NCBI RefSeq assembly: GCF_009498455.1
Contig: NZ_CP045644.1
Location: 4,901,001-4,965,000, forward strand
From: Variovorax paradoxus
GTDB taxonomy: Bacteria; Pseudomonadota; Gammaproteobacteria; Burkholderiales; Burkholderiaceae_C
Length of the DNA: 64,000 nt
Reading direction: 5' to 3'
Positions 7,195 to 41,765 of this stretch are shown one piece after another. A program made the translations under genes and the position numbers. Below the pieces are notes generated by a model. It did no database searches, was not told the origin of the DNA, and worked only from the letters and a program-made list of their open reading frames with translations. How positions within the stretch are numbered: the stretch's first letter is position 1; the number at the start of each line of letters is the position of its first letter.

Positions 7195-10100
7195 ACGGCG
7201 CTGCCTACGAACACAACGGCCGGCACGTCGCGCGCGAGGCCTTCTACACCGTCGCCTGCGATCCGCGGCGCTCGGTCGCGGTCGAGGCCTGCGCGGGCGC
7301 CGGCAAGACCTGGATGCTGGTGTCGCGCATCGTGCGTGCGCTGCTCGAAGAGGGCGAATCGGCCTGCGAACCGCACGAGATCCTGGCCATCACCTTCACC
7401 AAGAAGGCCGCCGGCGAAATGCGCGAGCGGCTCGACCAGTGGCTCGCGCTGTTCGCCGAGCTCGACCCGGCCGCTTCGCAACGCGAACTCGTGATGCGCG
7501 GCATGACGCCCGAGGCCGCGCAGGCGGCTGTCCCGCGCCTGCAGGGGCTTTATCGGCGGCTGCTCGAAGGCGGGCGGCCCGTGCAGTTCCGCACCTTCCA
7601 CGCGTGGTTCGCGGGCCTGCTGCGCAACGCGCCGCTCGCCGTGCTGCGCGAGCTGGGCCTGCCGGCGAACTACGAACTGCTCGAAGACGATGCCGAGGCG
7701 CGCACCCACACGTGGCGGCCATTCTTCGAAGCCGTGACCGGCGACGCGCGCGCGCTGGCCGACTACTACGCCGTCGTCGCCACCCACGGCCGCTCGCAGA
7801 CGGCGAAGGCGCTGGGCGAAGCGCTGTCGAAGCGGGTCGAGTTCTTGCTGGCCGATGCCGAGAACGCGGTGGCGCCTTTCGATGTGCTGTACCCGACCTT
7901 GCAAGGGCTCGAGGTGCCGACCGATGCACTGCGCGGCGACGCCGTGCGCCGTCGCTGGCTCGACCGCGCCGCCGCCCTCGGCCGCGAGGCCAACAAGACA
8001 CCGCAGAAGGCTGCCGAAGCCATCATCGACGTGTTCGGCAACGGCGAGCCTGCGCCCGAGACGCTGACCGACGCACTCGCGGTGCTGCGCAAAACGTTCT
8101 TCGTCGCGAGCGAAGACCGGCTCACCAAGAACCTGCAGAAATTCCCCGCCGCACAAGAGGCCGAAACCGAGCTGCAGCTGCTGTGCGCTGCGCAGGCCCA
8201 GCACGCGGCCTGGCTGTACCAGCAGCGCATGACGCGGCTCACGCGCCTGCTGATCACCGCCTTCGGCGAGGTCAAGCGCGCGCACGGCTGGGTCGACATG
8301 AACGACGTCGAGCAGGCCGCGCAGCTGCTGCTGGGCCAGTCGGCGCTGTCGGGCTGGGTGCAGGAGCGGCTCGACGCCCGCGTCGCCCACCTGCTGATCG
8401 ACGAGTTTCAGGACACCAATCCGCTGCAGTGGCAGGCGCTCTACGGCTGGCTCAGTGCTTACACCGGTGCGGGCGGCAGTGCGCCGCGCGTGTTCATCGT
8501 GGGCGACCCCAAGCAGAGCATCTACCGCTTCCGCCGCGCCGAGCCGCAGGTGTTCATCGCGGCCAAGAAGTTCGTGCGCGAAGGGCTCGGTGGCGAGCTG
8601 CTCAACTGCGACCACACGCACCGCAATGCGCGCGCCGTGGTCGGCCTCGTCAACAGCGCGATGCTGGCCGCGCAGACGGCCGGCGAGTTCGACGGCTACC
8701 GCGCCCACACCACCGAACGCGGCGACGACGGCGAACTGCTGAAGCTGCCCGCCATCGACCGCGACGCCGTGGACACCGCCGCGGTCGCTGCGCCGGCCGA
8801 CGACGGCATGCTGCACTGGCGCGACAGCCTCGTCACGCCGCGCGTGCTGCCCGAAGAGCAGCTGCTGCAGAAGGAGTGCGAACAGGCCGCGCGCTGGGTC
8901 GCGCAACGCATCGCCGACGGCACGCCGCCGCGCCAGATCATGGTGCTGGCGCGCCGCCGCAGCCGGCTGTCGGCCATGCAGGACGCGCTGCGCCGCCGCC
9001 ACATTCCCGTGCAGCAGCCCGAGAAGAACGACCTGAACGATGCGCCCGAGGTGCAGGACGTGGTCGCGCTGCTCGACGCGCTGGTGTCGCCTGCGCACGA
9101 CCTGTCGTTGGCGCGCGCGCTCAAGTCGCCGCTGTTCGGCATCGACGACGACACGCTGGTGCAACTGGCCCGCTGCCAGCGCGAGACGCCGGTGGCCAGC
9201 TGGTTCTCGCTGATCCAGAAAGGCGAGGGCCTGCCGCCCGTGCTGATCGAGGCGGGCGTGCAACTGCGCCGCTGGCAGCGCTGGCTGATGGCGATGCCGC
9301 CGCACGACGCGTTGGATGCGATCTTTCACGATGGTGATGTGCTCGCGAAGTTCGGTGCCGCAGTGCCGGCAGCTTTGCGCCAGAGCGCGCTGGCCAACCT
9401 GCGCGGTCTGGTTGCCGCCTCGCTCGACATCGACGGTGCGCGCTTCGCGACGCCTTACGCCTTGGTGCGTGCCTTGCGTGCGGGCGGCGTGCGCGCGCCC
9501 ACCGTGGCCGCGCCCGAAGCCGTGCAGCTGCTGACCGTGCACGGCGCCAAGGGCCTCGAAGCCGACACCGTGCTGATGCTCGACTGCGACGCCCCGCCGC
9601 CGCGCGCGCAGACCATGGGCGTGCTGGTCGAATGGAAGGGCAGCGACAGCGCGCCGACGCGCTTCGTGTTCCTGGCCAGCGAGAAGACGCCGCCGGCCTG
9701 CGCCGCCGCGCTGCTCGAGGAAGAGCAGCACGCGCGCCACCGCGAAGAACTCAATGGCCTCTACGTGGCGACCACGCGGGCGCGCGAGCGGCTGGTGCTG
9801 TCGTCGGTGAAGCCGTCGCGCGCCAACGAGGGCAGCTGGTGGACGCGGCTGGAACCGCTGTGCGAGCCGACCGAAGCCGACGAACCGCTGGTCGAGGCGT
9901 CTGCCGCCGCGGAGGCCGGCTCGGCCACCTTCGCGATGAAGCGCCTGCCCGCACCACTCGTGGCTGCAACCGGTGCAGTGCCCGAAAAGAAAAAGGCGCA
10001 AGACGCCACGGTCGACGCGCGCGCCGCCGCGTTCGGCCAGGCCATGCACCGGCTGCTCGAATGGGCGGTGCCCGGCGAGGCCTTGCCACCGGCCCATGTG

Positions 10101-10463
10101 CGGGCGGCCGCGCGCGAGTTCATGCTCGATCCGCAACAGGCGCGCGGCGCCGCGGCGCTGGCCCAGCGCATCCGCGCGGGCGCCGGGGCCTGGGTGTGGG
10201 ACGATCGCAGCATCGACTGGCATGGCAATGAAGTCACGCTGGTCCACGAGGGCGATACCTTGCGCATCGATCGGCTGGTGCGCGAGCGCGCCACCGGCGC
10301 ATGGTGGATCCTCGACTACAAATCGGCCGCGCGCCCCGAACGGGACGCGGCCCTGATCGCACAGATGCAGCGCTACCGCGCTGCCGTGCAACATGCCTAC
10401 CCCGGTGCCACGGTGCGCGCCGCGTTCCTGACCGGGCAGGGCGAACTGGTGAATCTCGAATGA
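7191..10463 (+). CDS. AddA-like UvrD/REP-family helicase-nuclease
   Basis: This 1090-residue SF1 helicase has all the UvrD motifs in order: Walker A EACAGAGKTWML (near residue 35), a motif with AITFTKKAAGEM, Walker B LLIDEFQDTNPLQW, IVGDPKQSIYRFRRA, LTVHGAKGLEADTV and LYVATTRARERL. The C-terminus adds a RecB-type nuclease domain (WWILDYKS, about residue 1040). This is the AddA layout. The start at ATG 7191 overlaps the stop of the AddB-like gene; an in-frame ATG at 7134 is less likely. It should unwind and resect broken DNA ends with the AddB-like partner. Its stop overlaps the ATG of the next gene. Confidence 0.88.
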   Translation: MNGAAYEHNGRHVAREAFYTVACDPRRSVAVEACAGAGKTWMLVSRIVRALLEEGESACEPHEILAITFTKKAAGEMRERLDQWLALFAELDPAASQRELVMRGMTPEAAQAAVPRLQGLYRRLLEGGRPVQFRTFHAWFAGLLRNAPLAVLRELGLPANYELLEDDAEARTHTWRPFFEAVTGDARALADYYAVVATHGRSQTAKALGEALSKRVEFLLADAENAVAPFDVLYPTLQGLEVPTDALRGDAVRRRWLDRAAALGREANKTPQKAAEAIIDVFGNGEPAPETLTDALAVLRKTFFVASEDRLTKNLQKFPAAQEAETELQLLCAAQAQHAAWLYQQRMTRLTRLLITAFGEVKRAHGWVDMNDVEQAAQLLLGQSALSGWVQERLDARVAHLLIDEFQDTNPLQWQALYGWLSAYTGAGGSAPRVFIVGDPKQSIYRFRRAEPQVFIAAKKFVREGLGGELLNCDHTHRNARAVVGLVNSAMLAAQTAGEFDGYRAHTTERGDDGELLKLPAIDRDAVDTAAVAAPADDGMLHWRDSLVTPRVLPEEQLLQKECEQAARWVAQRIADGTPPRQIMVLARRRSRLSAMQDALRRRHIPVQQPEKNDLNDAPEVQDVVALLDALVSPAHDLSLARALKSPLFGIDDDTLVQLARCQRETPVASWFSLIQKGEGLPPVLIEAGVQLRRWQRWLMAMPPHDALDAIFHDGDVLAKFGAAVPAALRQSALANLRGLVAASLDIDGARFATPYALVRALRAGGVRAPTVAAPEAVQLLTVHGAKGLEADTVLMLDCDAPPPRAQTMGVLVEWKGSDSAPTRFVFLASEKTPPACAAALLEEEQHARHREELNGLYVATTRARERLVLSSVKPSRANEGSWWTRLEPLCEPTEADEPLVEASAAAEAGSATFAMKRLPAPLVAATGAVPEKKKAQDATVDARAAAFGQAMHRLLEWAVPGEALPPAHVRAAAREFMLDPQQARGAAALAQRIRAGAGAWVWDDRSIDWHGNEVTLVHEGDTLRIDRLVRERATGAWWILDYKSAARPERDAALIAQMQRYRAAVQHAYPGATVRAAFLTGQGELVNLE

Positions 10464-32640: not shown

Positions 32641-34206
32641 ATGAATGCTTGGGCCCGGTCTTTCTTGCGCACGGCGCTGGCCGGCGTGCTGCTGGCATTG
32701 CTTGCGGCTTGCGGCTCCTTGCCGCCGGCGCGCGAACGCCCGGCCGAGCACGCGGCCACGGCCGACCCGGGCACCGCGCTCGCCAAGATCGTCACGGCCT
32801 CCACGCCGCCCGGCGAGCATTCGGGCTTCCGGCTCATGCCGCTGGGCGTGTACTCGCTCGACGCGCGCCTGCAGCTCGCGCAGCGCGCCGAGCACTCGCT
32901 GGTGGTGCAGTACTACCAGCTCGAGAACGACGCCGTCGGCCGGCTGCTGCTGCGCACGCTGCGCGAGGCGGCGGCGCGCGGCGTGAAGGTGCGGGTGCTG
33001 GTGGACGACCTGTACACGGTGAAGAGCCAGCAGCTCTTGCTGGCGCTGTCCGAGACGCCCAATGTGTCGGTGCGCCTGTTCAACCCGTTCTGCTGCGCGC
33101 GCAACGGCTTTCTCTCGCGCTTCGTGGTGTCGATCTTCGACATCCATCGGCTCAACCACCGCATGCACAACAAGCTCTTCATTGCCGACGGCGCGATGGC
33201 GGTGGTGGGCGGGCGCAACATCGCCGACGAGTATTTCGTGCTGAGCGAGGCGCAGAACTTCATCGACATGGATGCGCTGGTGGTCGGCAAAGTCGTGTCG
33301 CAGCTCGAGAGCATCTTCGACGCCTACTGGAACAGCGACCAGATCTGGCCCATTGCCGAAATCGTGCGCAAAGAGGCCGGCGCCGCCACCTTCGACGACG
33401 AGGTCGGCATGGCCGGGCCGCCGCCGAAGGTCGTGCTGCCGCCTTCGGACATCCTCGGCTACGGGCCCATCGCCGAAGAGCTCGACGGCGGCCGCATGGG
33501 CCTGTTGTGGGGCGAGGCGCGCGCCATTGCCGACCCGCCGTCCAAGCCCACGACCCTGACGGCCGAAGACGCGATTGCCACCAGCGTGACGATGAAGGTC
33601 TGGGCGCTGCTGCTCGACGCCAAGACCGAGGTCGACCTGACCTCGCCCTACCTCGTGCCCGGCGAGCGCGGCATGGCCGCCTTCGAGGACCTGGCCCGGC
33701 GCAAGGTCAAGCTCACGCTGCTGACCAATTCGCTCGCCGCCAACGACGAGCCGCTGGTGCACACCGGCTACGCGCGCTACCGCGAGCGCCTGTTGAAGGG
33801 CGGCGCCGACCTGTACGAGCTGAGCCCGCAGCGCACCACCGCGAGCATGCGTTTCGGCAGCTTCGGCACCTCGCTGGGCCGGCTGCACGCCAAGACCGCC
33901 GCCATCGACAAGACGCGCATCTTCGTCGGCTCGATGAACCTCGACCCGCGCTCGGCCAGCCAGAACACCGAGATGGGCGTGGTGGTCGACAGCCCGCAAC
34001 TCGCGCGCGAGATGCTGCGCATCATCCACGTGAGCAAGTTGCAGAACTCGTACCGGCTGCGGCTGTCGAAGGAGGGCGGCACGCTCGAATGGCTCACGAA
34101 CGACGGCGAGAAAGAGGTGATCCTCACCTCGGAACCCGAGTCGGGTTTCTTCCAGCGCCTGTACAACACCCTGATCTCCCCGCTGGTGCCCGAGATGCTG
34201 TTGTAG
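32641..34206 (+). CDS. Phospholipase D family lipoprotein (cardiolipin-synthase-like)
   Basis: The 521-residue protein has a lipoprotein signal (LLALLAAC-G). It carries two HxKx4D motifs, HNKLFIAD (about residue 178) and HAKTAAID (about residue 418), followed by GGRN and GSMNLD as in the PLD/ClsC family. It could act as a cardiolipin synthase or phospholipase at the periplasmic side. It is the first gene of a close run: the sterol-desaturase-like gene starts nine bases later. Whether it belongs functionally with the downstream genes is inferred only from spacing. Confidence 0.87.
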   Translation: MNAWARSFLRTALAGVLLALLAACGSLPPARERPAEHAATADPGTALAKIVTASTPPGEHSGFRLMPLGVYSLDARLQLAQRAEHSLVVQYYQLENDAVGRLLLRTLREAAARGVKVRVLVDDLYTVKSQQLLLALSETPNVSVRLFNPFCCARNGFLSRFVVSIFDIHRLNHRMHNKLFIADGAMAVVGGRNIADEYFVLSEAQNFIDMDALVVGKVVSQLESIFDAYWNSDQIWPIAEIVRKEAGAATFDDEVGMAGPPPKVVLPPSDILGYGPIAEELDGGRMGLLWGEARAIADPPSKPTTLTAEDAIATSVTMKVWALLLDAKTEVDLTSPYLVPGERGMAAFEDLARRKVKLTLLTNSLAANDEPLVHTGYARYRERLLKGGADLYELSPQRTTASMRFGSFGTSLGRLHAKTAAIDKTRIFVGSMNLDPRSASQNTEMGVVVDSPQLAREMLRIIHVSKLQNSYRLRLSKEGGTLEWLTNDGEKEVILTSEPESGFFQRLYNTLISPLVPEMLL

Positions 34207-34215
34207 CCTCGGGGG

Positions 34216-34989
34216 ATGGCGCAGACCTTCACTTCTCTTTCGGCCCCGCAGGTCATGCTGTGGGGCCTGCTTTTTTTCGGCGGCATCTACCTGGGTTTCG
34301 GCGCGCTCACCTGGCTGCTCACGAAGCGGGTGCTGCCGACGATGGGCATTGGGCGCGTGCTCGACCCGCGACCGTTGCAGCCCGGCCAGCTGCGGCGCGA
34401 ACTCACGCAGTCGGGCATCTCCGTGCTGATCTTCGGGCTGGGCATGGTATTCCCGTGGGGGCTGCTGCAACTGGGCTGGGCGCGGCTCGAGCCCGATGCG
34501 GGCTGGCAACGCATCGGCATCGAGATCCTCGTGCTTGCGGTGTGGAACGACGTGCATTTCTGGCTCAACCACCGGCTGCTGCACACGCGCTGGCTGCGCC
34601 GCTTTCATGGCCCGCACCACCGCTCGTTCGTGACCACGCCATGGGCCACCTACAGCTTTCACCCGATCGAGGCGCTGATGCTCGGCAACGTGATCCTGCT
34701 GCCGATGGTGCTGCACGATTTCAGCTTCTGGTCGCTGGCGTCGGTGCCGGTGTTCAGCCTGTTCTTCAACTGCGTCGGGCATTCGAACTACGACTTCGTG
34801 CCCGGCGTGTCATACAGCCACTGGTTCGCCGCGAGCCGTCGGCATCACCTGCACCACGCCGTGCACAACGGCAACTACGGCTTCCAGTTCACGTTCATGG
34901 ACCGGCTGTTCCGCACGCGCATCGCGGCCGATGCGGCCGAGCCGCTGTTCCAGGCTTTTCGAAAGAAGCATGGCGCCACCACTGCCTGA
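34216..34989 (+). CDS. Sterol desaturase / fatty acid hydroxylase superfamily protein
   Basis: The 257-residue membrane protein has four or five hydrophobic segments and the three His boxes of the superfamily: HFWLNHRLLH, FHGPHHRS and HHLHHAVHNGNYGF. These bind a diiron centre that hydroxylates or desaturates lipids with O2. The substrate is not evident; sterols are unlikely in this organism. It overlaps the next gene by 20 bases. Confidence 0.88.
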   Translation: MAQTFTSLSAPQVMLWGLLFFGGIYLGFGALTWLLTKRVLPTMGIGRVLDPRPLQPGQLRRELTQSGISVLIFGLGMVFPWGLLQLGWARLEPDAGWQRIGIEILVLAVWNDVHFWLNHRLLHTRWLRRFHGPHHRSFVTTPWATYSFHPIEALMLGNVILLPMVLHDFSFWSLASVPVFSLFFNCVGHSNYDFVPGVSYSHWFAASRRHHLHHAVHNGNYGFQFTFMDRLFRTRIAADAAEPLFQAFRKKHGATTA

Positions 34990-35911
34990 CGCGCGCCATC
35001 GGTTGCCGAGGCTGCGGCACTGGCGCGACTGGCAAAGCCTTGCGTACCTCGTCGCATTGCCTGCGCTGGCGGCGTGGCAATGGGCGCTGGGCTTCCAGAT
35101 GGTGCTGTACGCGCTGATGCTGTTCCTCACGCTCGGCATCGGCGTGATCCATCACAACCATGTGCACCTGCGCATGTGGCGCGGTCGTCGCATGAACCGG
35201 CTGACCGACTTCTGGATCACGCTGCTGCAGGGCCACCCGACCTTCGTCTTCTGGCCCGCGCATGTGGCCAACCACCACCGCCACCGGCACGGACCGAAGG
35301 ACGTGGCGCGCACCTACCGCTTTGGCGGCGACACCAACCACCTGTGGGGCTACCTGCTGCACCCGTTCCAGGCCGTGTGGGTGCTGATGCCTGTGTTCGT
35401 CGGCTGGCTCGCGCGGCTACATCAACATCACCGCGGCGCCTGGCGCTACTGCATGGCGCAGTACGCGCTGTGGCTGGTCAGCTGGACCGTGCTGCTGGCG
35501 ATCGACTGGCGCAAGGCATTGCTGTTCGTGATCGCGCCGCAGCTGCACGGCCTGCACTGGCTGCTGGCCACCAACTACCTGCAGCACGCGCACGCCGACG
35601 GCCGCAAGACGCCGCGTAAGGAGGCACCCGGTGATACCCGCGGTAGCCAGCTGAACTACGCCCGCAATTTCGAGGGGCTGGTGAACCCCTTGCTGTTCAA
35701 CATCGGCCTGCACACCGCACACCACGAGAACCCGCATGCCCATTGGTCCGAGCTCACGCACCTGCACCACACGCGTTACCGCGCGCAGGTGGCACCCGCG
35801 CTCAACGAGGGCGGGCTGGTGCCGTACATGGTGCGCGTCTTTGTGCTGGGGACCGTGTGGCCGCGTTTTCGCAGCCGCTCGCTGATGCCTCCCGATTCAC
35901 CTATTGCCTGA
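34970..35911 (+). CDS. Fatty acid desaturase-like membrane protein
   Basis: The 313-residue protein has paired membrane segments and three His boxes: HHNHVHLRMW, HVANHHRHRHG and HTAHHENPHAHW, the diiron ligand pattern of membrane desaturases/alkane hydroxylases. NFEGLVNPLLFNIGLHTAHHE matches a desaturase-like group near AlkB. Its start at ATG 34970 overlaps the preceding gene by 20 bases, and the ketosynthase starts four bases after its stop. This arrangement implies joint expression and perhaps a joint pathway. Confidence 0.85.
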   Translation: MAPPLPDARHRLPRLRHWRDWQSLAYLVALPALAAWQWALGFQMVLYALMLFLTLGIGVIHHNHVHLRMWRGRRMNRLTDFWITLLQGHPTFVFWPAHVANHHRHRHGPKDVARTYRFGGDTNHLWGYLLHPFQAVWVLMPVFVGWLARLHQHHRGAWRYCMAQYALWLVSWTVLLAIDWRKALLFVIAPQLHGLHWLLATNYLQHAHADGRKTPRKEAPGDTRGSQLNYARNFEGLVNPLLFNIGLHTAHHENPHAHWSELTHLHHTRYRAQVAPALNEGGLVPYMVRVFVLGTVWPRFRSRSLMPPDSPIA

Positions 35912-35915
35912 ACCC

Positions 35916-37835
35916 ATGCCCGTTTCATTCCAACGCGTGTACCTCGAAAGCGCCGGCTACTTCATGCCCGGCGAGCCTGTTCCCAACGACCGCATGGACG
36001 CGTACATCGCGCCGCTCAACCGCATGTCGGAGCGCATCAAGCGCCGCATCCTGGCCGAGAACGGCATCCTCACGCGGCACTACGCGATCGACGAAGAAGG
36101 CGTGACGCGCCACACCAACGCGCAGCTGGCGGCCGGCGCGATCCGCGACTGCCTGCAGCGCGGCGGCGCCGAGCTGTCGCGCGTGTCGCTGCTGGCCAGC
36201 GGCTCGTCGGGCGGCGACACCCTGATGCCCGGCTTCGCCAACATGATCCAGGGCGAGCTGGCGGCGCAGCCGATGGAAACGCATTCGGTGCACGGCATCT
36301 GCGCGGCCGGCGTGTCGGCGATCCAGACGGCCGCGCAAGGCATCGAGCTGGGCGCGCACCGCTCGGCGCTGGCCGTGGCCAGCGAAATGCCGTCGCGCCT
36401 GTTCAAGCGTTCGCGCTTCGCGGCGCGCGGCTACGAGACCGATTTCGACTCGCACTTCCTTCGCTGGATGTTGTCCGATGGTGCAGGCGCGCTGCTGCTG
36501 TCCGACGGCACGCCCGCGCTGGCCGGCAAGCCGGGGCTGCGCCTGAAGCTGAAGTGGGTGCACCAGCGCGCTTTCTCGGGCGACTACCCGGTGTGCATGC
36601 AGCTGGGCCTCACCGAAGACCGCGCGCGCGGCCATCTCGATTTCGGCTCGTGGGCCGAGGCGGAAGCGGCCGGTGCGCTGTCGCTGCGCCAGGACATTCG
36701 CCTGCTGCCGCATCTGTTCGACATCGGCATCCACGAGTACGCGGGGCTGGTGCGCGACGGCTGGGTCGATCCGAAGCGGGTCGACCATTTCCTGTGCCAC
36801 TACTCGTCGGAAAAATTCATCCCGGTGGTCGAAGACCTGATGGCCAAGGCCGACCTGGCGATTCCGCGCGAGCGCTGGTGGAGCAACCTCGCGTGGCGCG
36901 GCAACACCGGCGCGGCGTCGATCCTCGTGATGCTGGCCGAGTTCCTGCACACCAAGACACTGAAGCCGGGCGAGCAGATCTTCTGCTATGTGCCGGAGTC
37001 GGGGCGTTTCATGGCGGCGTACATGTTGCTCGAGGTCGAGGCGGTCGATGCGGCGCCTGTCGTGATCGCGCCCCGCGCCGCGGCTGTGGTGCCCGACGAC
37101 GACCTCGTCATCGCGCCGCCGCACGACCCGGACGCCGCACCCGAGGGCCTGGGCGCCTTGCTGACGGAACTCGCTGCCATCTGGCACGACTACCGCTCGC
37201 GCGTGTGGCGCACGCCGCTGATCCGCCAGATCCGCGAGCGCCGCTTTGCCGTGCCCGACTACCTGAACTGGATGGAGCAGTGGGTGCCGCAGGTGCGCGA
37301 AGGCAGCCTGTGGATGCGCGAAGGCGCCGCTTCGCTGAGCGAGCCGTACCGCATGCTGTCGTCGCTGATCGACGTGCACGCGGGCGAGGAGCAGAACGAC
37401 TTCAACATCCTCTTCAGCGACTACCGCAAGGCCGGCGGCACCGTCGAGTCGATCGACGAGTTGCGCCGCAACCCCGGCGGCGAGGCGCTCAACGCCTACT
37501 TGCACGGGCTGGCCGCCACGCGCGATCCGATCGGATTGCTGGGCGCGATCTACATCATCGAAGGCACGGGCCAGCGCATCGTGCCGGCGCTGCTGCCGCT
37601 GCTCAAGGCCAGCCTGAAGCTGCCGCCCGACGCCTTCCGTTTTCTCGAGTACCACGGCCACAACGACGAGCACCACCTGAACCGCTGGCTCGCCGCGGTC
37701 GAGATGGTGATGGCCGTGGAAGGGCAAGCCCGCGCCGCCCGCCAGATTGCCGACACCGCGCGCCACACGGCGGCGCTGTACCTGATGCAGTTCCAGCACA
37801 TCACCGAACGAATGCCTCATGAGCCGAACGCCTGA
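35916..37835 (+). CDS. StlD/DarB-type ketosynthase fused to a heme-oxygenase-like diiron domain
   Basis: The 639-residue protein has two parts. Residues 1-385 are a KAS III-like ketosynthase with N-terminal SERIKRRILAENGILTRHYA as in StlD/DarB enzymes; the likely catalytic residues are C129 (HGICAAGVSA), H295 (FLCHYSSEK) and N330 (WRGNTGAAS). After a Pro/Ala-rich linker, residues 411-639 form an all-helical domain with H488/E491/E492 (VHAGEEQNDF), E549 (YIIEGTGQ) and D584/H586/H587 (HGHNDEHHLNRW). That pattern resembles heme-oxygenase-like diiron oxidases (for example UndA), although the fine assignment is a guess. StlD/DarB proteins condense two acyl chains in resorcinol and stilbene formation. 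The product here is unknown. TTG at 35904 is a possible earlier start. Confidence 0.82.
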   Translation: MPVSFQRVYLESAGYFMPGEPVPNDRMDAYIAPLNRMSERIKRRILAENGILTRHYAIDEEGVTRHTNAQLAAGAIRDCLQRGGAELSRVSLLASGSSGGDTLMPGFANMIQGELAAQPMETHSVHGICAAGVSAIQTAAQGIELGAHRSALAVASEMPSRLFKRSRFAARGYETDFDSHFLRWMLSDGAGALLLSDGTPALAGKPGLRLKLKWVHQRAFSGDYPVCMQLGLTEDRARGHLDFGSWAEAEAAGALSLRQDIRLLPHLFDIGIHEYAGLVRDGWVDPKRVDHFLCHYSSEKFIPVVEDLMAKADLAIPRERWWSNLAWRGNTGAASILVMLAEFLHTKTLKPGEQIFCYVPESGRFMAAYMLLEVEAVDAAPVVIAPRAAAVVPDDDLVIAPPHDPDAAPEGLGALLTELAAIWHDYRSRVWRTPLIRQIRERRFAVPDYLNWMEQWVPQVREGSLWMREGAASLSEPYRMLSSLIDVHAGEEQNDFNILFSDYRKAGGTVESIDELRRNPGGEALNAYLHGLAATRDPIGLLGAIYIIEGTGQRIVPALLPLLKASLKLPPDAFRFLEYHGHNDEHHLNRWLAAVEMVMAVEGQARAARQIADTARHTAALYLMQFQHITERMPHEPNA

Positions 37836-38730
37836 ATTCCTGACGCAAGCGCACGACGAGCGCGACCCCAGCCCGTGGCTGGCGCTGTACCTCGACCAGA
37901 GCACGCCGCTGCCCGACGACGTCAAGTCCGCGTGGCTGGCCGATTCGAGCTCGGCCTCGCGCCAGTACCTGCTGCCGTTCCTGCGGCCGATTGCGCGGCT
38001 GACGATCATCCTGATCCAGATCGTGAAGGTGTTCGTGCCGCGCAACTGGTCGCACTCGATGCTGCTGCATCGCTTTCTGGCGTGGGGGCTCAAGCGCTTC
38101 GTGTCGCCCGAGGCCAACTGGCTGATCCTGCGGCACTTTCACCTGGGCTCGCAGGTGTTGAGCTTCATCGGGCGCAACTCGCCCGCGCCCGTGGGCACGT
38201 CGCCGCTGGAGCCGGCGGACATCGACGCGCTGAAGGACGAGATGTTCCTGAAGCACGACCTGAACCTGTTCAACTTCGTGATCCGGCTGAACACGGCGCT
38301 GCGCGACAAGGGGGTGGCGCTGTGCACGGCCGAGCAGGTCGATTTCTCGATGATCCAGTCGCCGGCGTTGCGGCTGGAAGACATGCCCCAGGGCAAGCTG
38401 AATTTTCTCGACCTGCAAAGCGCCATCGAGCTGTTCACGCCGCTGTACCAGCTGATGCTGACCGACAACGATTTCTGGCGCGCGGCCAACTCCTTGCAAC
38501 TGGACGAAACCATCGGCATCTATGCGGCCACGATCCTGAACGCGCCGGAGCACCTGATCCTGGTCAACAACAAGCATCCGCTGGTACCGCTGTCGACTTT
38601 ACGGGCCGGGCACCGGCTGGTGATCCACGGCTTGTCGACCGAAATGCTTCACAGCCTGCTCCAGCGCATGCGCGCGGCGCAGGAGGGCGGGGCGCCAGAA
38701 CCACTTCGGCGCGACCCGCCCCTTGCATAG
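37819..38730 (+). CDS. Conserved protein of unknown function downstream of the ketosynthase fusion
   Basis: The 303-residue protein overlaps the ketosynthase gene by 17 bases. It opens with DERDPSPWLALYLDQSTPLPDD, has one or two hydrophobic segments (residues 50-75, ARLTIILIQIVKVFV), then a soluble region with HDLNLFNFVIRLNTALRDKG, and ends in a Pro/Arg-rich tail. I recognise no catalytic motif. The coupling to the ketosynthase suggests a role in the same pathway, perhaps as a membrane-associated partner. Confidence 0.75.
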   Translation: MSRTPEFLTQAHDERDPSPWLALYLDQSTPLPDDVKSAWLADSSSASRQYLLPFLRPIARLTIILIQIVKVFVPRNWSHSMLLHRFLAWGLKRFVSPEANWLILRHFHLGSQVLSFIGRNSPAPVGTSPLEPADIDALKDEMFLKHDLNLFNFVIRLNTALRDKGVALCTAEQVDFSMIQSPALRLEDMPQGKLNFLDLQSAIELFTPLYQLMLTDNDFWRAANSLQLDETIGIYAATILNAPEHLILVNNKHPLVPLSTLRAGHRLVIHGLSTEMLHSLLQRMRAAQEGGAPEPLRRDPPLA

Positions 38731-38747: not shown

Positions 38748-39116
38748 ATGCAAACCATGAACACGACCCGAAATCCGTCTCCCAAGACCGATCTGGCAGT
38801 GACCCACGTGCTGGCTCAACTGCTGGAGAGGCTTGAGCACAGCGCCGTGCCGGTGGGCGCCGCGCAGTACCGCTCGGTGGTCGAGCATCTGGTGCATGAG
38901 TTCGAAGACGTCGAACCCGGTGCCGAACTGGGCCAGTTGCTCGATGCCTACCCGGCCGCCTCCGAGGTCTACGAAAATATGAATTACCAGCACGCCGGCC
39001 TTTGCCGCTCGGCGCTGGACGTTTCCCTGGCCGCCGAAGGCGCAGCCAAGGAAGCCATTGCCCGCGCCATGCGCGGTGACGAATCGAACAAGGACAAGAT
39101 GCATGGCCAAGGGTGA
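38748..39116 (+). CDS. Small conserved protein of unknown function
   Basis: The 122-residue protein (MQTMNTTRNPSPK...) is acidic and helical, with LAQLLERLEHSAVPVGAAQYRSVVEHL and a C-terminal lysine-rich end. No family is recognised. It starts 17 bases after the preceding gene; a second in-frame ATG lies at 38757. TATGCT (38734-38739) lies nine bases before the ATG and may be a -10 box. Its end overlaps the next gene by 14 bases. Confidence 0.7.
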   Translation: MQTMNTTRNPSPKTDLAVTHVLAQLLERLEHSAVPVGAAQYRSVVEHLVHEFEDVEPGAELGQLLDAYPAASEVYENMNYQHAGLCRSALDVSLAAEGAAKEAIARAMRGDESNKDKMHGQG

Positions 39117-40180: not shown

Positions 40181-41017
40181 TCAGGCCGACGCTGCCGCAG
40201 CAGCGCCCACGGGCGTGAACTGCGCGCCGTTGTCGGCCAGCCAGCGCGCCGAGAGGCTGCTGTCCTGCTGGTCGGGGTGGAAGTCGCTGCGCAGGTACTG
40301 GCGCCAGCCCGCGAGATTGCCCCGCAGCAGGCCGCCGCGGCCCAGCAGGATGCGCGCGGCGCTCTTCCAGGTGGCCCACTTCCACAATTGCTTTTCATGC
40401 CGCAGGTTGTCGACCGTCTGGCGCATCAGGTCGCCGAGGAACATCACCGTCACGCGGCGGAACCAGCGCGTGCGCCATTCGTCGGAGCCGCCCGCGGCCT
40501 TGTAGATGTCGAAGGCGACGCTCTTGTGCTCCAGCTCTTCCGCGCTGTGCCACAGCCACATCGTGCGCAGCCGGGGCTCGGCGCCGTCCAGGATTTCGGG
40601 ACGGGCCAGCAGCCACTCGGCGAACATCGCCGTGAAGTGCTCGGTGGCGGCCGTCACGGCCAGCGCGTGGCGCGGATCGGCGCCGTCCATCAGTTCCATG
40701 CGTTGGCTGGCACGCCCGGTCCAGCGGTCGACCAGGCCTTGCTGGTCGAGGTGCGCGTTGAACAGCGAATGGATGCGGCGGTGCGTCGCCTCCTGGCCGA
40801 TGAAGCCGCGCACGTCGGCGCGGTAGCGCTCCTGCAGCTCGGGCGGCAGCGTGGCCATGGCGTCGCGCACGGCGTCGATGAAGAACTGCTCGCCGAAGGG
40901 GAAGCTCATCGACAGGGCGTTGAAGAAGGCTGTCGAAAAGGCATCGCCGCCGCACCAGTCGCGCGAGAAGGGCGGTTGCAGGTCGATCAGCAGGCGGCGG
41001 ACAACGAGTTCGGTCAT
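40181..41017 (-). CDS. Metal-dependent hydrolase family protein (PF10118-like)
   Basis: The 278-residue, mostly helical protein has FIGQEATHRRIHSLFN (about residues 88-103), ATEHFTAMFAEWLL and WHSAEELEHKSVAFDIYKA. These repeated E..H patterns resemble ferritin-like metal sites and are the signature of the family annotated as predicted metal-dependent hydrolase. No reaction is established. ATG 41017 gives the family length; the frame is open further upstream to 41164. It is divergent from a TetR gene and its promoter holds two operator-like palindromes. Confidence 0.82.
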   Translation of the reverse strand: MTELVVRRLLIDLQPPFSRDWCGGDAFSTAFFNALSMSFPFGEQFFIDAVRDAMATLPPELQERYRADVRGFIGQEATHRRIHSLFNAHLDQQGLVDRWTGRASQRMELMDGADPRHALAVTAATEHFTAMFAEWLLARPEILDGAEPRLRTMWLWHSAEELEHKSVAFDIYKAAGGSDEWRTRWFRRVTVMFLGDLMRQTVDNLRHEKQLWKWATWKSAARILLGRGGLLRGNLAGWRQYLRSDFHPDQQDSSLSARWLADNGAQFTPVGAAAAASA

Positions 41018-41051
41018 GGGAAGGCAATTCCTGAGGTCGTGGGCAAAAGTT

Positions 41052-41067
41052 GGTACAACTCCGTACC
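41052..41067. promoter_or_regulatory. Operator-like palindrome 1 (GGTAC-N6-GTACC)
   Basis: GGTACAACTCCGTACC is a 5-bp arm inverted repeat. Its arms are identical to those of palindrome 2, 44 bases away. It lies between the -35 region and the start of the hydrolase gene, a typical repressor position. Confidence 0.7.
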
Positions 41068-41095
41068 GCGTGCCGCCATGGTGCAATTGCGAACT

Positions 41096-41111
41096 GGTAC
41101 TGTCAAGTACC
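41096..41111. promoter_or_regulatory. Operator-like palindrome 2 overlapping a TTGACA box
   Basis: GGTACTGTCAAGTACC has the same arms as palindrome 1. Its centre, read on the minus strand, is TTGACA, a perfect -35 box for the hydrolase gene; the -10 box is weak. The TetR start codon is 25 bases away on the other side, so one site could control both genes. Confidence 0.72.
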
Positions 41112-41135
41112 GAGGCGTAGGAAAATGAATCCGAC

Positions 41136-41765
41136 ATGACTGCCACCATCGACAAACCCGTCACGCCCGATGCCGCCGAAGGCGCGCCCAGCGAGCACTA
41201 CACGCGGCTGCTGCAGGGCATGGCGCATGCTGTGGCGGCCAAGGGCTACGCCGACACCACCATCGCCGACATCGTGCGTGAGGCGGCCGTGTCGCGGCGC
41301 ACGTTCTACGAGCACTTCAGCACCAAGACCGAGTGCCTGATCGCGCTGTACGAAACGGCCAGCCGGCTCGGCCTGCAGGCCGTGAGCGAAGCCTTCGACC
41401 CCGCCCAGCCGTGGCACACGCAGGTGGAGCAGGCGATGACCGCGTACATGGACTACCTCGCGCAAGACCCGGTGTTGCTGCGCACGCTGTTCGTCGAGAT
41501 CCTCGGGCTGGGCCTGCCGGGCCTGGCGGCGCGGCGGCGCGTGAACGGCGAGATCGCCAACTTCATCCAGGTGGCGATCAACAGCAGCGAGTCAGGCGAG
41601 GCGCCCGCGGCGCACATGAGCAGCCAGATGGCGATGACGGTGGTGGGCGGCATCAATGAACTCGTGCTGCAGGCCATCGAGCAGGACCGCGTGGGCGACC
41701 TGCGCGAGCTGGTGGCGCCGGCCACGCGGCTGGTGCGCGCGGTCGCGGCAGACAGTCGCCGTTAG
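41136..41765 (+). CDS. TetR/AcrR family transcriptional regulator
   Basis: The 209-residue protein has the TetR helix-turn-helix at residues 20-65 (GYADTTIADIVREAAVSRRTFYEHFSTK). The C-terminal ligand-binding domain is helical with no recognisable ligand. It is divergent from the metal-dependent hydrolase gene, and the two palindromes between them are its probable operators, so it likely represses both. Confidence 0.9.
   Translation: MTATIDKPVTPDAAEGAPSEHYTRLLQGMAHAVAAKGYADTTIADIVREAAVSRRTFYEHFSTKTECLIALYETASRLGLQAVSEAFDPAQPWHTQVEQAMTAYMDYLAQDPVLLRTLFVEILGLGLPGLAARRRVNGEIANFIQVAINSSESGEAPAAHMSSQMAMTVVGGINELVLQAIEQDRVGDLRELVAPATRLVRAVAADSRR

Follow-up and report, generated by a model that had tools for sequence, protein, structure and literature searches.

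A ketosynthase fused to a haem-oxygenase-like domain, partnered by DUF6999, marks a candidate lipid pathway in Variovorax and other Proteobacteria

Ketosynthases of the StlD/DarB type, which belong to stilbene and dialkylresorcinol pathways, form a cyclohexane-1,3-dione. The dialkylresorcinol (DAR) genes encode DarB, the DAR-cyclase, and DarA, the DAR-aromatase (PMC3949708). Haem-oxygenase (HO)-like dimetal oxidases (HDOs) form a different group, in which only about a dozen members have a validated function; those characterised are mostly linked to fatty or amino acid substrates, and their reactions include N-oxygenation, C-C cleavage and desaturation, the last of these known for MboA and PolF (PMC13108848). 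Their primary ligands follow a 3H/3C rule on core helices 1, 2 and 3, other sets being allowed too (PMC13108848). Here we describe a gene cassette of Variovorax paradoxus in which a ketosynthase and an HO-like domain are joined in a single protein. It lies in a window of 64,000 nucleotides (NZ_CP045644.1, positions 4,901,001 to 4,965,000, to which the coordinates of cassette genes refer) of a 7.29 Mb genome assembled as a single contig, in a run of five plus-strand open reading frames (ORFs; 32641-38730), here called A to E, whose neighbours are either separated by 9 and 4 bases or overlap by 20 and 17. A preliminary description, made from the sequence letters alone, had given the same close packing, and these ORFs are indeed present.

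The central protein, D (639 amino acids; 35916..37835, plus strand), begins at an ATG, with an alternative in-frame TTG at 35904, and Pfam, NCBIfam and an alignment with StlD identify it as a StlD/DarB-clade ketosynthase fused to an HO-like diiron-type domain; its Pfam matches are ACP_syn_III_C and Haem_oxygenas_2 (40.7 bits against a cut-off of 28.9). The ketosynthase domain (residues 1-380; 35916..37055, plus strand) has the thiolase fold and StlD motifs and aligns with StlD, its closest solved relative, over residues 7-374, with C129, H295 and N330 in conserved motifs. The C-terminal domain (residues 410-639; 37143..37835, plus strand) adopts over residues 410-638 the HO-like helical fold expected of an HDO. 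Among 215 HO-like sequences, of which many are near-identical and eight are unfused, and in which two split Variovorax loci (L083 and L084, below) are represented by their second loci, H488, E492, D495, E549, H580, D584 and H587 are identical in every member. Both domain assignments of the preliminary description, including the three catalytic residues of the ketosynthase, were thus borne out, and its list of conserved His, Glu and Asp positions held for H488, E492, E549, D584 and H587; E491 (207/215) and H586 (85/215), however, are not invariant, and D495 and H580 were absent from that list.

Like UndA, AetD, SznF, PolF and MboA, D combines the HO-like fold with a helix-2 Glu and a helix-3 His, Asp, His in the pattern H-x3-D-x2-H, and the spacing of its candidate ligands matches that of AetD (D76/H79, E140, H172/E176/H179; PMC10654658). 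It differs from these enzymes in carrying Asp instead of the helix-1 His, in all 215 sequences, in having an invariant His four positions ahead of the helix-1 Glu, and in that the HO-like domain is fused to, or encoded next to, a ketosynthase. An HO-like protein of Shewanella denitrificans (3dde) has His at the position of D495. The ligand comparison set 10 of the 215 ketosynthase-linked sequences against the 30 top-scoring PF14518 loci, 21 of which share one motif; one row (L162) is misaligned, and the underlying search gave matches in 137/396 genomes.

On either side of D stand further enzymes. B (257 amino acids; 34216..34989, plus strand) is a His-box membrane oxygenase of the FA_hydroxylase family (PF04116, 1.2e-21; 78 bits against a cut-off of 31) with the motifs HFWLNH, HGPHH and HHLHH, and C (313 amino acids from an ATG; 34970..35911, plus strand) is a membrane protein of the FA_desaturase family with the boxes HNHVH, HVANHH and HTAHH (PF00487, 5.5e-19; 69.4 bits against 29.7, as scored on a longer 326-residue reading that starts at 34931). 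These are the two different membrane oxygenases named in the preliminary description. Downstream, E (303 amino acids; 37819..38730, plus strand) is a DUF6999 protein (PF22523, 4e-131; 436.5 bits against 27); it had been called unknown and indeed has no known function, although the family does have a Pfam name. Its predicted structure is all-helical and confident, with a mean predicted local distance difference test score (pLDDT) of 90.9, and hydropathy marks one strongly hydrophobic stretch at residues 51-73. R105, H106, H146, D147, D198, D229, R266 and E275 are invariant in all 125 rows of a DUF6999 alignment that counts the window sequence twice, and H270 varies once. A metal site in DUF6999 is possible. 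DUF6999 as a hidden HO-like domain was rejected (hhalign probability 0.4%), and a weak match to an ABC ATPase in L030 (E 1e-6, from a search of a tiny database) was discounted because the L030 genome gave no DUF6999 match.

To see which genes belong together, we compared the best 80 of 455 stretches with DUF6999 relatives in the GTDB genome collection, a set dominated by near kin. B-C-D-E is contiguous and on one strand in 76 of these 80 loci (39 Variovorax, 28 Achromobacter, 5 Bordetella, 2 Pseudorhodoferax, 1 Pigmentiphaga and 1 metagenome-assembled genome), and the order persists while flanking genes vary between lineages. The neighbourhood noted in the preliminary description is therefore kept across several genera, and in the unfused groups described below. 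The run is incomplete in four loci: L083, L084, L088, which is a 3.3 kb contig, and L095, for which FA_hydroxylase was matched neither at the locus nor anywhere in the genome (G809). The fusion itself is present in 78/80 loci, and L083 and L084 carry it at a second genomic locus. In these two Variovorax genomes B and E stand at one locus and C and D together at another (L145 and L146), so that all four genes are kept. Between the pair, non-synonymous divergence (dN) is 0.012 for B and 0.015 for E and synonymous divergence (dS) 0.109 and 0.113, respectively, giving dN/dS of about 0.11 for FA_hydroxylase and about 0.13 for DUF6999, which indicates constraint. As the two genomes are related, the split is perhaps a single event; nevertheless, the retention of every member after it suggests that all four genes matter and that FA_desaturase and the fusion form one sub-unit. 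Named proteins among the 120 closest relatives of D are all from Variovorax, except for one from Acidovorax cavernicola.

Gene A, a PLD-superfamily lipoprotein (521 amino acids; 32641..34206, plus strand; PLDc_2 PF13091, 1.2e-36), behaves differently. It adjoins B upstream in 36/42 Variovorax loci and was not matched in any of the 38 loci from elsewhere, some of which end at contig ends. We therefore rule it out as a core gene: A is a peripheral neighbour outside the conserved core, and the earlier grouping of five genes into one set is partly wrong, holding for B-C-D-E but not for its PLD member, whose position beside them is conserved only within Variovorax. A ClsB-type cardiolipin synthase gene lies upstream of FA_hydroxylase in a genome of a different family (L026, 5478-6635, plus strand; 373.6 bits against a cut-off of 281), making a looser tie to phospholipid enzymes possible. 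Flanking genes were likewise rejected as pathway members, those among the clusters listed outside the cassette in 24 loci being lineage-specific or resembling antisense shadows (on crude gene calls).

Searches beyond these near kin revealed a smaller core. In a phylum-wide sample of 398 genomes, DUF6999 occurred in 9 and a related ketosynthase (E<=1e-60) in 18; in all nine DUF6999 genomes a ketosynthase and an HO-like domain adjoin it, and in the other nine ketosynthase genomes no HO-like gene adjoins the ketosynthase and DUF6999 gave no match. Similarly, within the class of one sampled genome (G223), DUF6999 was found in 6/337 genomes, G223 included, with the ketosynthase and HO-like partners beside it in 6/6; across the sampling the pair stands beside DUF6999 in 14/14 DUF6999 genomes. 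In the order of another genome (G368), G368 alone matched among 148 genomes searched. A control genome, Caulobacter vibrioides, has matches to DUF6999 and PF14518 at the genome level. Eight loci carry ketosynthase, HO-like protein and DUF6999 as separate genes in that same order: six are presumed alphaproteobacterial (L134-L139), a class deduced from named relatives (Sphingomonas, Sphingobium, Aquisalinus and others) and kinship, and two are gammaproteobacterial (L028, and L147 from Pseudoalteromonas THAF3). The presumed alphaproteobacterial versions retain the HO-like gene without adjacent membrane oxygenases. The core is thus a ketosynthase, an HO-like enzyme and DUF6999, the two membrane oxygenases being seen only in the fused, Burkholderiales-type version. 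Since the separate genes keep the same order, the two enzymes were partners before they became fused; together with the branch in the ketosynthase tree described below, this suggests that an older unit of three parts later acquired the fusion and the two membrane enzymes.

Two observations accompany the unfused loci. Upstream of both gammaproteobacterial ketosynthases is a small His-rich membrane protein of 185-188 residues (L147, 7436-7993; L028, 9441-10007), neither copy having a Pfam match and no NCBIfam match being found. It is possibly another membrane oxygenase; one copy (P0361) gave hhalign probabilities of 0.7% and 0.1% against B and C, in alignments of two sequences only. Plasmid records matched at E<=1e-60 in 4/72,556 cases, each covering the ketosynthase half only, and plasmid spread of the cassette was rejected on these counts; of the two inspected, THAF3 has HO-like and DUF6999 neighbours and Streptomyces sp. 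NBC_00008 does not. The latter plasmid (L148, typed mobilizable) encodes a DarB-like ketosynthase, two acyl carrier proteins, an FAD-dependent monooxygenase, an SCP2 domain protein, FabF, a P450 and FabG.

How does the cassette relate to dialkylresorcinol synthesis? D scores below the NCBIfam cut-offs for StlD/DarB (NF005293, 316.6 against 450 bits; NF053539, 256.0 against 550), and in a tree 18 ketosynthases of the cassette type are separated from 11 DarB-like ones lacking these partners by a branch with bootstrap 92 and SH-aLRT 79. The window holds none of the genome's 16 carrier-protein (PP-binding) matches, and a DarA-like query reached at best E 0.18 there, compared with 1e-154 for a control (L144). 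The preliminary description had noted that the standard dar genes are missing; this is true of the window, which has neither a carrier-protein nor a DarA-like gene, but such genes do exist elsewhere in the genome. A separate dar locus (L039; G000:C1:6186000-6203000) encodes a DarA-like protein (9124-10128, minus strand) upstream of a DarB ketosynthase (7998-9134, minus strand; 586.9 bits against 450 for NF005293 and 463.5, below the cut-off of 550, for NF053539), a BtrH-like protein and an ABC ATPase, with a carrier-protein match at 6190211-6190426, about 4 kb away; no cassette partner was matched there. Its content agrees with the dar genes of Azoarcus given in PMC3949708, in which Variovorax paradoxus S110 was mined as well. 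Compared with this canonical, arcuflavin-type locus, the cassette likewise has a StlD/DarB-family ketosynthase and differs in its partners, an HO-like protein and DUF6999. As a dar locus exists elsewhere, the cassette is not the genome's ordinary dialkylresorcinol pathway.

On balance we consider it probable, though well short of secure, that the cassette is a lipid pathway built on a two-step enzyme that condenses and then oxidises. Judging from its family and catalytic residues, the ketosynthase half would take up a fatty acyl thioester at C129; using H295 and N330, it would then condense this chain with another thioester, probably a beta-ketoacyl one, and the outcome would be either a beta-keto acid or a cyclic 1,3-dione. 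Since no carrier protein is encoded in the window, the carriers or coenzyme A esters that it uses would have to come from other parts of the cell. Next, the HO-like diiron domain tethered to it would, with O2, dehydrogenate or oxidatively decarboxylate the condensed product. Least certain of all, DUF6999, a partner in every version examined, may be a membrane-associated enzyme that either completes the product or anchors it, and in the Burkholderiales-type version the two membrane His-box enzymes would introduce double bonds or hydroxyl groups into the alkyl chains. Two classes of product are compatible with this scheme, namely an aromatic lipid formed by ring dehydrogenation and a ketone, enone or alkene. 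More specifically, and more tentatively, the product may belong to an undescribed proteobacterial lipid class, for which the ketosynthase would pass its product directly to a diiron oxidase with a non-3H/3C ligand set (Asp for the helix-1 His) and DUF6999 would be a third metalloenzyme of the pathway (H106, H146, D147, D229, H270, E275); we give this version something less than an even chance.

Several observations weigh against the condense-and-oxidise pathway. In the alignment, helix 1 offers Glu and Asp rather than Glu and His, a departure from the 3H/3C set at one position. The AlphaFold model of D is of only moderate quality (mean pLDDT 68.3, predicted template modelling score 0.52), so that how it positions its two active sites towards each other is tentative. 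One genome (L027, G316) keeps the fusion and DUF6999 open with an interrupted FA_desaturase, matched as two pieces, and no FA_hydroxylase match in the genome. FA_desaturase went unmatched in all six presumed alphaproteobacterial genomes, in three of which the FA_hydroxylase matches are merely distant, making a single product for all versions doubtful. The Pseudoalteromonas THAF3 HO-like protein (P0363) has no PF14518 match at E<=0.1; its name comes from annotation, and its candidate ligands align with the other HO-like sequences. Finally, what the data show is the HO fold, the conserved residues and the gene partnership; substrate, order of steps and product are all points that we infer, and the bound metal is a candidate.

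Other explanations must be set beside this pathway. It is possible, if doubtful, that the product is a dialkylresorcinol- or quinone-type aromatic lipid, the ketosynthase making a dialkylcyclohexane-1,3-dione as DarB/StlD do and the HO-like domain replacing the aromatase DarA by O2-driven ring dehydrogenation. Nothing like DarA, the listed DAR-aromatase (PMC3949708), lies in the window, StlD is the closest solved relative and HDOs such as MboA and PolF are capable of desaturation (PMC13108848); yet a separate dar locus of the genome already supplies DarB and a DarA-like protein together with a carrier-protein match, and the ketosynthase falls below both StlD/DarB cut-offs and across the 92/79 branch from its 11 DarB-like relatives. 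A long-chain ketone, enone or alkene, close to the modified long-chain ketone, alkene or similar lipid suggested in the preliminary description, seems unlikely: here an OleA-like head-to-head condensation would yield a 2-alkyl-3-keto acid, which the HO-like domain would decarboxylate oxidatively as UndA does with fatty acids.

That the HO-like domain is structural or regulatory, holds no catalytic metal and leaves oxidation to the membrane enzymes alone might be argued from the Asp that replaces the usual first-helix His in every member examined. However, this Asp and the remaining canonical positions show no variation in 215/215 sequences, which a non-catalytic remnant would not need, and the HO-like gene persists in the presumed alphaproteobacterial versions, where no membrane oxygenase adjoins it, so we regard this as improbable. 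Hardly likely at all is a loose lipid-remodelling neighbourhood, not one pathway, in which the PLD protein, hydroxylase and desaturase act on membrane phospholipids. PLD-type genes do recur nearby, upstream or elsewhere in the locus in Variovorax and as the ClsB type in L026, and two genomes keep D and E without a match to B; against this, the B-C-D-E order and tight packing extend across families despite differing flanks, and all four genes were retained where the locus was split.

In the literature searched, which covered mostly openly accessible papers and so is not proof of absence, we found no description of DUF6999, no pathway with this gene set, as the preliminary description had also supposed, and nothing joining 'ketosynthase' to 'iron-containing redox enzyme'. 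'Ketosynthase' together with 'heme oxygenase-like' turned up in work on chalkophomycin, and the main text of the HDO review contains none of the words ketosynthase, fusion, fused or polyketide (PMC13108848). Each of the two enzyme types, ketosynthase and HO-like diiron oxidase, is known by itself, but these searches gave no description of both as one enzyme. Variovorax genome papers reportedly mention resorcinol, which may refer to the dar locus or to the cassette. The earlier interpretation as a whole is partly supported. If the proposal is true, a condensing enzyme with a built-in O2 step would make oxidised lipids by a compact route and add a new reaction to those of the diiron oxidases, and the invariant Asp-for-His change makes a testable prediction on how ligand sets tune HO-like diiron enzymes. 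DUF6999 gains a pathway context, and since the set is found in Variovorax, Achromobacter and Bordetella, its product could bear on bacterial life with hosts.

Beyond the cassette, a small ORF (38757-39116, plus strand; MNTTRNPSPKTDLAVTHVLAQ...) lies immediately 3' of DUF6999, and similar ORFs follow DUF6999 in L083, L084 and L095. Further downstream, a PF10118 metal-dependent hydrolase (40181-41164, minus strand) is overlapped by a divergent TetR regulator (41136-41765, plus strand); the hydrolase was matched in 30/80 loci and the regulator in 29/80, Variovorax in every case.
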